DNA of 64,000 bases from Armatimonadota bacterium. Its GTDB lineage: Bacteria; Armatimonadota; Fimbriimonadia; Fimbriimonadales; ATM1. The notes under the pieces are model-generated. The model saw nothing but the letters and a program-made list of their open reading frames with translations. It ran no database searches and was not told where the DNA came from. Both the position numbers and the translations under genes were made by a program. Positions 1 through 6,847 of the stretch are shown here, in pieces. The stretch covers positions 1-64,000 of the forward strand of contig JADFGT010000002.1 of the NCBI GenBank assembly GCA_022567555.1, written 5' to 3'. The stretch's first letter is position 1, and each line of letters opens with the position of its first letter.

Positions 1-450
1 TTCAACCGCGACCTCGGCAACGTGCGGATGGTCTTGATTCTTTCACCCACGTGAGGGGTGTGCCTGCAAGGCGCCCGTGTGGTGCAAGAACAGGTCCTCA
101 ACAAGATAGGCAGCAACAAACTGAAGGTGTCTGTCGTGTGGACGCCCGTGCTCGGCGGCGACAATAGACGCGCGGCACAAGACGCTGTGAAACTGGTCCC
201 CGACAAAAGGGCAACACACTATTGGGACGCCGACAAGAGTCTCGGACTCAGTTATGGGAAGATCGTCGAGTTGCCCCGCGGAGGCAAACTCGCGTGGGAC
301 ATCTACTTCGTGCATGACGGAAAGGCCGAGTGGAAAGACGGCCCGCCCAAGCCCGACTATTGGATGCACCAGTTGGGAAGGGACGAGCGCCGCCTGGACG
401 GCGACAAACTGCGCGAGGCCGTGCAGAAGATAATGAAGGCCGGGAGTTAA
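1..450 (+). CDS. Thioredoxin-like protein, candidate selenoprotein (5' end outside window)
   Basis: The frame open from base 1 encodes a hydrophobic strand (VRMVLILSPT), meets TGA at 52-54, then continues GVCLQGARVV and stays open to TAA at 448-450. Reading the TGA as selenocysteine gives U-G-V-C, a UxxC redox motif at the end of a beta strand and start of a helix, where thioredoxin-fold proteins carry CxxC. A hairpin at 71-85 has the layout of a bacterial SECIS element. If translation instead began at GTG 58, the redox strand would be lost. The rest (about 130 residues) contains strand KVSVVW and a WDxxKSLGLSYG segment but no other family motif that I recognise. It is convergent with prcA, 12 nt away. 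Alternative: a Cys codon mutated to a nonsense codon. The thioredoxin-like fold is inferred from the motif and its setting. Confidence 0.6.
52..54 (+). other. Candidate selenocysteine (UGA) recoding codon
   Basis: In-frame TGA between SPT and GVC. A single change to TGC or TGT would give the ordinary redox motif CGVC, which marks the position as a Cys/Sec site. The coding frame is open and protein-like on both sides. Confidence 0.55.
71..85 (+). promoter_or_regulatory. bSECIS-like hairpin downstream of the UGA
   Basis: GCGCC (71-75) pairs with GGTGC (81-85), one pair being G-T, around a five-base loop CGTGT (76-80). The loop carries G at its second position and begins 22 nt after the TGA. 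Bacterial SECIS elements are described as having a G in the first two loop bases about 16-37 nt from the UGA, so spacing and loop both fit. The lower stem is poor. Confidence 0.5.
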
Positions 451-2600: not shown

Positions 2601-4649
2601 ATGATTTGCTGGATTGCCGCGCTTGCGGCGCTCACCGCCCAAGGCCCGGCCGATCCGTCGGCCGACCCGCGCTTGGCGACGCCTGTCACCTACTCGACGG
2701 CGGGCGAGACGCTCTCGAAAACCATGGCCGGTCTGGGGAAACCCGCCGGTGTGAAATTGGAGGTCGCCAAGGGATACGACCAAGACTTCCTGGTCCTGCG
2801 GGCCTCCGGCGTGCCGCTTGGCGAAACCATGCGGAAGGTAGCCGACCACTTCGAACTTGAATGGCGGGTTTACGGCGAGGGCTACCTTCTGATCCAGACC
2901 TCCGAAGCGAAGAAGGCCGAGGAAGAGGCACTGAAAGAGCAGTTCCTCAGGCCGTACGTCGAGATGCAGAAGAAACTGAAGGAGAAACTGGCCGGACCGA
3001 AGCCGGACCTCGAAGCGGCCAAAGAGGATCTGGAGCGGATGCGGGAGGGCACACGTCCGGACATCGCGACAGATATGCGAGCCTACCAGTCGTGGGGCGA
3101 GCGCTTCGGCGAACTTACCAACATAGCCAATCCAGGTTATTGGGTCGCCATGGCGCTCGTGTCGGACCTCGACCCCGATCTGTTTATCGAGCTGGACGAC
3201 TGGGGCACGATCGTCTTCTCCACCGCGCCCACGCGGACACAGCGGCGTATGCCGAACGTGGACCCGGACCTGCTGCAAGGGTTCATCGAGGCGGCTCTGA
3301 AAGGGTACGCCGAACTGCAGCGCCGGCGCGCCGACTATCCCGACCCGCGACCGGCCGCAGTGCACGTCCGCCTGCGGATGGTCTCGGCAGGCGGAAACTT
3401 CCATGCACACACCCACCTGCTCGACGAGAATGGCGAGGTCATTTCGCTGACTCTGTCGCGCGACTTCTCTTTCCAGGTGACACGGCCGCGCGGCAACGCC
3501 GACCTAAATGACCGCACTCCCAAAGGAACGAACCTCGACAAGGAGGTCGCCCTGGAGGGTCCGTTCTCCTACATGATTGATGGGTCCGCGCAACGCGATC
3601 CAGACAAGATGGCGGAGGCGATGACGTTCATCTTCAGCCGCATGGCGCAACTCGACAAGCATGAACCGCTGCGGTGGTCGTTCGGAGGACTGATGCTGCA
3701 AATCGCGGACAAAGCGGATGTCAACTTCATCTCGGATTTGCACGATGAGATGTTCACAGCGCCGGGCGGAATGGTGGGGAAAACCGCCCGAGACCGGCTG
3801 GCGACCTTCGGCAACGCCGCGAACTGCAAACTGAACGAGGACGGCGGATGGGTGGCGCTCTCCCACATGGAGCGCGCGCTTGCACGCGCGAAACAGGTAC
3901 CGCGCAAGCTCATACGCCAGATCAAGGAGTGGGGCCGCGCGCACGGTACGCTGACGCTCGACGAGGCGGGGTGGGTCGCGCTGCAACTGACGAACCTGCA
4001 GTTGGGAAACCAGATTCTCTCGTTCGCTGCCGACATGCACGTCATTGGGCCGCGGTCTAACAACGTCTTCAATGACAAGCCTCATGTGCAGGTCCTGCGG
4101 CTCTGGGCGTTACTCTCGAGCCGCAACAAGGCCGCGCTGTTGAACGACGGCTCGCTTCAGGTTGGGTCCATGCCGCCGGCCGCGCGGCAGCAACTGTGGC
4201 GGTGCCTGCTGACGCCGGGGGGAATCACGTTCAGCCGGCCCTATCCCGGCAGGCGCGACATGAGCCCGACCCAGGTGTTCCCGAACGGCCTGCCGCCTAA
4301 CGCCGTGATCACAGCGGAACTGGACGAGGAGTGGGTGTTGCTCGTCAAGCAGCGGGTCGAAGGCTTGGACCTCTTCATGCCCGTCACGATGCCCCTCGAG
4401 CGGCTCGCTCGTATGGGCCGCGACCCTGAGCAAGCCTTCGACATGAGCGCCGTGCGATTCGGCAAGAGCCTGGAGATCACCGTGCGGGTCCCTGAAACAG
4501 GCTGGACGGCCGACCTCAACGACCCGGTATTCGACATGTCGAAACCTGCTGTACCCTGGAGCCAGATGCCGGACGAAGTGAAGGAACGGTTCGAGGAACT
4601 CCGGAAGGGTTCGGGCGGCCCGCCGCCGCCGCCGGAGGCCGCGCCGTGA
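2601..4649 (+). CDS. Secreted protein with STN-like modules, paralog 1 of 3
   Basis: Encodes 682 residues and is the first of three tandem paralogs. A short signal peptide (MICWIAALAALTAQ) is followed by GPADPSADPRLATPVTY, a block shared by all three. Next come a module with VKLEVAKGYDQDFLVLRASG and a helix-strand ending YLLIQTSEAKK, resembling the short STN domain of secretins and TonB receptors, then a charged coiled-coil segment. A second similar module lies around residues 365-440 (ADKADVNFISDLHDEMF). The C-terminus is proline-rich (GGPPPPPEAAP). There is no secretin channel domain, no TonB box and no transmembrane anchor, so function is unknown. It overlaps the next gene by 4 nt (GTGA). 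Confidence 0.7.
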   Translation: MICWIAALAALTAQGPADPSADPRLATPVTYSTAGETLSKTMAGLGKPAGVKLEVAKGYDQDFLVLRASGVPLGETMRKVADHFELEWRVYGEGYLLIQTSEAKKAEEEALKEQFLRPYVEMQKKLKEKLAGPKPDLEAAKEDLERMREGTRPDIATDMRAYQSWGERFGELTNIANPGYWVAMALVSDLDPDLFIELDDWGTIVFSTAPTRTQRRMPNVDPDLLQGFIEAALKGYAELQRRRADYPDPRPAAVHVRLRMVSAGGNFHAHTHLLDENGEVISLTLSRDFSFQVTRPRGNADLNDRTPKGTNLDKEVALEGPFSYMIDGSAQRDPDKMAEAMTFIFSRMAQLDKHEPLRWSFGGLMLQIADKADVNFISDLHDEMFTAPGGMVGKTARDRLATFGNAANCKLNEDGGWVALSHMERALARAKQVPRKLIRQIKEWGRAHGTLTLDEAGWVALQLTNLQLGNQILSFAADMHVIGPRSNNVFNDKPHVQVLRLWALLSSRNKAALLNDGSLQVGSMPPAARQQLWRCLLTPGGITFSRPYPGRRDMSPTQVFPNGLPPNAVITAELDEEWVLLVKQRVEGLDLFMPVTMPLERLARMGRDPEQAFDMSAVRFGKSLEITVRVPETGWTADLNDPVFDMSKPAVPWSQMPDEVKERFEELRKGSGGPPPPPEAAP

Positions 4650-6847
4650 TAGCGCTGTTGGCGGCCTGCCTGGCCCTCTCTTCCGCCCAAAGCCCAGCCG
4701 ACCTGAAGGCCGACGTGCGCTTGGCGACGCCGGTCACCGTGCGGGCGGACGCCGAGATGGTCGGCTCGCTGCTCGAACGCCTCTCCGAGCGCCTCGACGT
4801 TCCGCTGAAAGTTCAGCCGAGAATCGAGCAGGACCTGATCGTCATCTACGCCGCAAACCGCCCCGCGCACGAGATACTTACGGTGATCGCCGAACACTTC
4901 GGATGGGAATGGCAGGAAGAGGAGGAAGGCTATCGCCTGATCCAAACACCCGACGCGCGGAGAGAGGAAGAACGCCAACTGCGCGAACTGATCCTTGAGC
5001 CGTATCTAAAGATCGGAGAAGGTGCGAAGAAGGCGCTGAACGTCTCCGAATCCGAGCGCGAGAGACTCCGCAACAGGGCACAGGAAATCGGCAAGCGGCT
5101 GGGCCAACTTCCCGACTGGGAGGAGCTGGAGACCTGGATGCCCGAATATGAGGAGTGGTCCAGGCTGCGGCGCGATCTTCGCGAGATGATCTTGAAGATC
5201 AGTCCGACCTGGATGTTAGTGAACACGGTTCTGGCTGAGATGACACCCGACGACTGGCTTGCGCTCGACCGGCAAAACAGACTCGTGTTCTCCCTGAAAC
5301 CTACCGTCTGGCAGCGGCCATTCAGCGGAAATGCGCGAGCCGCCGCAATGGAACTAATTCAAGAAGCGGCCGCGGTCGCGAACGCGCCTGACCCGATTGC
5401 CGCGCCAAGCCGTGGCTTCTTCAGCGTCCAAGCAGACCGGGAGTTCGGGCCGGAGGACGTCGCAACGGTTCGCCTCATTGTCTCGAACGTCGGATCAGGG
5501 CCGCGCCACAAGGGCGACCGCATCCTCTTGAGAAACAGCGTTGCTCTAATCAGCATAGACGGCAGCATCTTGGCAACGGACCGCGTCTTCAATTGGCTCA
5601 CCGACCCGCGCCCCCCGTTCAACCCGAGCGCGGTCAAGAAGCCGCCCGACCACCCACGAATGACGGAGCCGCTATCGCCTTCGCCGGGCCTGCGGCACGC
5701 GAACGGCCTCTCGCCCGTGCGAAACGGCTTCTCCGTCGCGAGCGATGAGTCCAGAACGGGGTTCCTTCAAGTGGGCTCGAAGACTGATGTCTATTCGGAC
5801 CTTCCGCGTCTGCTGAACGAGGTGGCAGTGTCCGCGGGAATCTGCGTCATAGCGGATCGGTACGACACGGGTCCTAACCCAATATGTCCCATTGAAACGC
5901 GCACGCTCGGCATAGCCCTCGGCAGCGTCGCCTATCGGGGCAGATATGAATGGGAGTTCGACGGGACCTGGGCGCGGTTCCGGACGGACGGCTGGCCATT
6001 GGACCGTGCATGCACCTTCCCCAGAAAGACGCTCTTCGCCTTTCGGGACAGGGTCATCGGCAACGAGGGATACACGCTGGACGACCTCGCCTCCCTCGCC
6101 TCGGCCGTCACCGACCGACAGGCAACATCAAACGCCGTCGGGCGCGTGCTCACTTACGACTGGTACGTGATCGTCGGGAGAGGCGGCGGCATGCTGTATC
6201 TTCTGCGCGCGTGGGCGCAACTCGGCGAAGCGCAGAAGCAGGCGTTGCTCCGTGGGGGGCCGCTGGTGTATGGCACGCTCTCTCCGGGCGCAAAGCGCAT
6301 GCTGGAAGAAGCGATCTATCGTCTTGACCGCGCGCAGGTCGCGGATATAGGCCTCCTGTTTCAGGAAGACGACCCGGACCTGGACTGGTTGAGGGAGAAC
6401 TGGCGGTACGACCCGCTGCAGCGGGGACGCCCGGAAGACGAAATCACACAACTGCTCCCGAACGGGGTCCCGCAGGACACGGAGATACGTCTTCGGACAA
6501 CCGTCGGACCCGCAATCTGGATGATGGACAACTGGGGACGCCTTCATCTGCGTGGACTGGCCGGGGCCGCATCATGGCTTTACTACAACGAACGGAACAC
6601 GGACTCCTGGGCCCTCCGCTACACGTTCCGGCCGGCCGAACGCAGGCGGCACTTCTTCACGATCACTCCTGGGCGCTCCGCGATGCGCGGCGCCGGACTC
6701 GTGACTGCAAAGGCACTGGCGGCAAGCCCGTTCGCCGCGCTCAGCGGGCTGCCGGAGGAACTGCGCAAAGAGCTTGAACGCTTAAAAGAGGAGATCCGCC
6801 GCCGCGCAGGGGGCGAACCGCCGCCTAAAATGGAGATGACACCATGA
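4646..6847 (+). CDS. Secreted protein with STN-like modules, paralog 2 of 3
   Basis: Encodes 733 residues from GTG 4646, overlapping the upstream stop (GTGA). It has a signal peptide (MIALLAACLALSSAQ), then SPADLKADVRLATPVTVRAD and an STN-like module (VPLKVQPRIEQDLIVIYAAN ... GWEWQEEEEGYRLIQTPDAR). A charged helical stretch follows, then a second module with NEVAVSAGICVIADRYDTG and WEFDGTWARFRTDGWPL. Near the end, ITQLLPNGVPQDTEI recurs in paralog 3. The three genes differ throughout, so the duplication is old and each copy has been kept. Predicted outside the cytoplasmic membrane; role unknown. Confidence 0.7.
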   Translation: MIALLAACLALSSAQSPADLKADVRLATPVTVRADAEMVGSLLERLSERLDVPLKVQPRIEQDLIVIYAANRPAHEILTVIAEHFGWEWQEEEEGYRLIQTPDARREEERQLRELILEPYLKIGEGAKKALNVSESERERLRNRAQEIGKRLGQLPDWEELETWMPEYEEWSRLRRDLREMILKISPTWMLVNTVLAEMTPDDWLALDRQNRLVFSLKPTVWQRPFSGNARAAAMELIQEAAAVANAPDPIAAPSRGFFSVQADREFGPEDVATVRLIVSNVGSGPRHKGDRILLRNSVALISIDGSILATDRVFNWLTDPRPPFNPSAVKKPPDHPRMTEPLSPSPGLRHANGLSPVRNGFSVASDESRTGFLQVGSKTDVYSDLPRLLNEVAVSAGICVIADRYDTGPNPICPIETRTLGIALGSVAYRGRYEWEFDGTWARFRTDGWPLDRACTFPRKTLFAFRDRVIGNEGYTLDDLASLASAVTDRQATSNAVGRVLTYDWYVIVGRGGGMLYLLRAWAQLGEAQKQALLRGGPLVYGTLSPGAKRMLEEAIYRLDRAQVADIGLLFQEDDPDLDWLRENWRYDPLQRGRPEDEITQLLPNGVPQDTEIRLRTTVGPAIWMMDNWGRLHLRGLAGAASWLYYNERNTDSWALRYTFRPAERRRHFFTITPGRSAMRGAGLVTAKALAASPFAALSGLPEELRKELERLKEEIRRRAGGEPPPKMEMTP

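Follow-up and report, generated by a model that had tools for sequence, protein, structure and literature searches.

Selenoproteins that combine a thioredoxin (Trx) fold with a UxxC motif are among the closest described counterparts of the gene reported here. Such proteins include Trx, the Prx-like thiol:disulfide oxidoreductase, the thiol-disulfide isomerase-like protein, the 'Redoxin family protein', GOS_C and SaoT, and they have in common with the present family the fold, the replacement of the first Cys of CxxC by Sec, and a bacterial SECIS element just downstream. A 2026 review listed 119 prokaryotic selenoprotein families, among which the 'Redoxin family protein' was assigned to PF08534, while a 2022 review gave it no domain (PMC13188914 for the 2026 review). 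According to the former, a bacterial SECIS element has a loop of 3–9 nt with G in one of its first two positions, lies 16–37 nt from the TGA, and has a stem of at least 4 bp and an MFE of −7.5 or lower (PMC13188914). In the present study, the window, a stretch of 64,000 nucleotides from a 2.95-Mb draft genome (an Armatimonadota MAG), was analyzed, and a gene of this kind was found at its very beginning.

Reading frame and active-site column

The features of the gene were as follows, all on the forward strand.

1 to 450: 3' part of the putative selenoprotein CDS (149 residues, Sec as residue 18), with full-length homology to 58 relatives
52 to 54: TGA predicted to encode selenocysteine at position 18 (U18) of the partial protein, where it opens the motif U-G-V-C; TGA or a Cys codon in 58 of 59 members
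61 to 63: TGC codon for Cys21, the second residue of UxxC; Cys in 58 of 59 members and TGA in one
71 to 85: candidate SECIS apical hairpin, GCGCC / loop CGTGT / GGTGC, based on the MFE structure, covariation in relatives and a synonymous-codon null
448 to 450: TAA, the true stop by the reading frame
58 to 450: ordinary-code ORF with a GTG start, an artefact of taking the TGA as a stop

The earlier note had placed an in-frame TGA at the position of a thioredoxin-like CxxC, in a frame open on both sides and ending at a normal stop. This was found to be correct: frame 1 was open from base 1 to the TAA, with the TGA as its sole interruption, and the TGA was flanked in frame by FNRDLGNVRMVLILSPT and GVCLQGARVVQ..., giving the motif SPT-U-GVC. 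The ordinary-code ORF from GTG 58 was also present, as had been said. The proposal that positions 1–450 were the gene held for the selenoprotein frame but not for its extent, as the 5' end is missing; window base 1 is also base 1 of the contig (G000:C23), and the gene was cut by the contig start, not by biology. In the relatives, the corresponding upstream N-terminus was signal-peptide-like.

The gene was adjoined by two adjacent genes on the reverse strand (463–1146 and 1143–1892), convergent with it and both with weak matches to the proteasome-subunit model PF00227 (34 and 60 bits, respectively, both above the cut-off). Two large overlapping ORFs of 682 and 733 aa, paralogous-looking and with similar N-termini, were observed at 2601–4649 and 4646–6847.

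Relatives were found by scanning genome contigs with profiles made from an alignment; a single-protein query gave nothing. The searches returned members from Armatimonadota, Planctomycetota, Eremiobacterota and Acidobacteriota, with matches in 48 of 396 evenly drawn Acidobacteriota genomes (about 12%) and in 10 of 392 Planctomycetota genomes, and no relative was found on plasmids. A marginal Armatimonadota match, in which SPTC was followed by TlpA-like sequence (L044), was left out of the count. The active column of the 59 distinct members contained TGA in 43, the window copy included, TGC or TGT in 15, and ACT (Thr) in one; TAA or TAG occurred in none. A second copy in the same genome (G000:C98), 50% identical to the first, and a relative from the same taxonomic family both carried TGA at this column. 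One member (L085, G938) had TGA at both motif positions (SPTUPKU), a UxxU form. The genome of the Thr member (L039, G101) nevertheless contained tRNA-Sec and SelA.

When the Sec column was left out of the tree building, parsimony required at least eight changes between Sec and Cys, four of them forced by well-supported branches. Repeated exchange of these two residues is a classic hallmark of genuine Sec. A real stop, whether in a decayed gene or followed by a translation restart at GTG 58, would agree with the ordinary-code ORF, but such a reading is highly improbable given 43 members with TGA and never TAA or TAG at a single column, with frames intact on both sides, and a SECIS element conserved with covariation in the TGA members only. 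Even less credible is decoding of the UGA as a different amino acid such as Trp, or an error in the base itself. No point was found in favour of either; Cys occupied the column in 15 of the 16 non-TGA members, the genome contains the Sec machinery described below, and a TGA shared by tens of independent genomes is not a sequencing error. The column counts in the 59 members led to the rejection of a base error, a pseudogene and UGA as Trp alike.

Selenocysteine machinery and SECIS hairpin

All four Sec genes that the earlier note had proposed to look for were present in the genome. The tRNA-Sec (selC) scored 77.7 bits and had the anticodon TCA, SelB and SelA scored 370 and 489 bits, respectively, and SelD scored 354 bits and was itself a Sec form with a canonical Sec-TGA in 'VESAGUASKLG'. 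The tetranucleotide signature of the window contig resembled that of the contigs carrying this machinery. The possibility that the contig had been misbinned was rejected, as the tetranucleotide correlation of the window with the other contigs of the genome (0.56–0.82) was like that among those contigs themselves.

Of the Sec-form genomes tested, all except two yielded a tRNA-Sec of 67–79 bits, and so did the genome of the Thr member, while two Cys-form Planctomycetota had none and gave scores only at the level of ordinary tRNAs. Three Sec-form MAGs yielded no selA. One of these has tRNA-Sec; the other two, from Pyrinomonadaceae and Eremiobacterota (L030 in G293 and L031 in G294), yielded neither gene, probably because these bins are incomplete.

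The hairpin described beforehand was present at 71–85, with a gap of 21 nt between the TGA and the loop. It had a 5-nt loop with G second and a 5-bp stem, and it formed part of the MFE fold of positions 55–100 (−18.4 kcal/mol including the lower stems, ensemble frequency 0.90), in which the lower stems reached to about 55–99. All of these values lie within the published ranges for bacterial SECIS elements. An Rfam search at the site returned neither a SECIS nor any other RNA family. Taken alone, the window hairpin was not special against shuffles (z −0.93), and against synonymous recodings the window copy gave p = 0.05. For the 43 Sec members, canonical hairpins were far stronger than in synonymous recodings (Fisher p ~1e-28, although the members are related), whereas those of the Cys members were no stronger.

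Two types of hairpin were distinguished. The window type (GCGCC-CGTGT-GGTGC) had 85% of its cells paired and showed covariation in relatives. The Acidobacteriota type (UUCGGGG-GGC-CUCCGAA), with its loop 17 nt after the TGA, had 96% of its cells paired and double changes in five of seven pairs, exceeding all 500 shuffles and all slides. Neither type was kept by the Cys members, for which the pairing was 43% and 53%. The hairpin is more than a chance feature, given the TGA column shared by 43 members and its own conservation and covariation.

Taken together, the sequence comparisons indicate that window 1–450 almost certainly codes for a selenoprotein. The UGA at 52–54 would be decoded as Sec by SelB and tRNA-Sec under the direction of the SECIS element at 71–85. 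On every point by which the earlier note had proposed to judge its selenoprotein interpretation, namely the Sec genes, the residue in homologs and the correctness of the base, the outcome was in its favour.

Fold and mercury-resistance neighbourhoods

The AlphaFold2 model of the protein (pLDDT 97.4) had a Trx fold with U18 just ahead of helix 19–33. A Trx fold in which UxxC opens the first core helix was also supported by Foldseek, whose best PDB matches were ResA, DsbF and CcmG/DsbE (E ~1e-5, TM ~0.57–0.63); a PDB search by sequence gave only marginal thioredoxin matches. In thioredoxins, a cis-Pro lies ahead of the next core strand and faces the active site. The equivalent site, placed by secondary structure without superposition, was A98-W99-D100, and nearly all members had Ala-Trp-Asp there and none of the 59 had a proline. 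The cis-Pro of the thioredoxin fold was the subject of 2007 work, as cited in PMC2757866. Its absence may favour metal binding in the present protein.

No Pfam or NCBIfam model described the family. The window protein did not match Redoxin (PF08534) or Thioredoxin (PF00085), falling below the curated cut-off, and the Redoxin model was matched weakly by five of the 59 members (best E 9e-6). None of the 119 listed families matched by model, the 'Redoxin family protein' being compared by description only (PMC13188914), and none of the papers in the literature collection searched described these genes. It is unlikely that the family is already known as the 'Redoxin family protein' selenoprotein (MBA3499694.1, HEU0032618.1) or as Prx-like 3 or Trx-like 3 of the GOS survey. 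The UxxC motif and the weak Redoxin similarity speak for such an identity, and so does the weakness of the domain matches in the listed groups themselves. However, no member matched a Pfam or NCBIfam model convincingly, and both GOS groups are mainly marine, with thousands of Cys homologs in the case of Prx-like 3, while the members retrieved in this analysis were for the most part Sec forms and for the most part from Acidobacteriota. The selenoprotein family is likely to be new.

The only neighbours recurring across many loci were mer-type genes, which lay within 3 kb of 21 of the 50 loci examined, the second copy of this genome among them; this count is descriptive, since part of the training set of the mer-type HMMs came from these loci, and independent naming came from NCBIfam. 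About 20 unrelated loci, taken together with the 64-kb window, yielded a single weak match, which was reductase-like. NCBIfam named MerT (G1017) and MerA (G774) above the cut-off and MerR, MerC and MerP below it, and it also named CopZ-type and DF family neighbours. The second copy was adjoined by a MerT-HMA fusion, an ArsR gene and a UxxC Sec glutaredoxin. The last of these, at L004 1259–1489 on the reverse strand (G000:C98), was glutaredoxin-like with the motif SQPGUHFC and lay directly downstream of the second copy. For the window copy, which stands at a contig end, the downstream neighbours were convergent and unrelated to mercury.

Some members were fused to further domains. An N-terminal MerP-like domain was fused in L101, and a C-terminal HMA domain in L033 and L034 and, by proximity, in L055/L099. 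In L037, L038 and L042, a C-terminal DF-like domain contained a second TGA (PGURxYxGGVPS), followed about 17 nt downstream by a conserved GGAGTTCCGTC hairpin. These two-domain fusions were noted at L037 2251 on the forward strand, and on the reverse strand in L038 and L042. In addition, a Planctomycetota contig (L027 1–930) carried the family domain fused to an N-terminal DsbD-gamma/thioredoxin-like domain.

As a whole, the results are very probably best explained by an exported Trx-fold selenoprotein with SECIS-directed UGA decoding, export being suggested by the signal-peptide-like N-termini of relatives. Selenols bind Hg very tightly. On the basis of the neighbourhoods and fusions, the UxxC site may bind or hand over a soft metal such as Hg(II); alternatively, it may maintain in reduced form the Cys pairs by which MerP/MerT-like partners carry metal. 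For some members of the family, the link to mercury detoxification is well supported; for the window copy, it is suggested by analogy.

The chance that the family originally or chiefly served to handle metal, most likely mercury, is slightly short of even. A competing explanation of similar weight is that the true selenoprotein acts outside the cytoplasm as a general reductase of the thiol/disulfide or peroxide kind, resembling TlpA/ResA or peroxiredoxins and having no role dedicated to metals, and that the mer neighbourhoods arose by later recruitment. The nearest folds (ResA, DsbF and CcmG/DsbE), the 29 of 50 loci without a mer-type gene nearby and the weak Redoxin matches in five members agree with a general reductase. 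Its difficulties are that mer-type genes alone recur beside many loci, that fusions to MerP and HMA domains are repeated, and that the substrate-binding site has no cis-proline. Tentatively, and with somewhat less confidence than in a metal-related role as such, the undescribed family may supply mercury-resistance systems with an exported selenol-thiol module that binds or transfers Hg(II) at a UxxC site opened to metal by loss of the cis-proline, the MerP fusions and the two-domain, two-Sec proteins included.

Ordinary gene calling cuts these genes at the UGA, and recognition of the family would correct many annotations. The family also shows the use of Sec in little-studied soil phyla, and it makes testable the direct use of selenol chemistry by bacteria for mercury handling.

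Comparison with described selenoproteins and thioredoxins

Compared with the other Trx-fold UxxC selenoproteins, the present family matched none of their Pfam or NCBIfam models and was distinguished by the signature SPTUxxC...GA, AWD in place of the cis-Pro, a conserved Trp, the PxP/WMHQ motifs, and the fusions to MerP and HMA domains. The extracytoplasmic thioredoxins of the TlpA/ResA/DsbE type were the best structural matches and are exported, as the present family appears to be. The family differed from them in an identity of only about 12–20%, the lack of the cis-proline, and Sec in place of Cys. Related domains in the same neighbourhoods are those of the mercury-system selenoproteins, namely the MerT/CopZ fusion-like NF045683, the UxxU metal-binding protein NF041115 and the DF family NF049942. 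These comprise transporter, HMA or DF domains, and no Trx-fold SPTUxxC domain is described among them; some members of the present family carry a fused DF-like domain.
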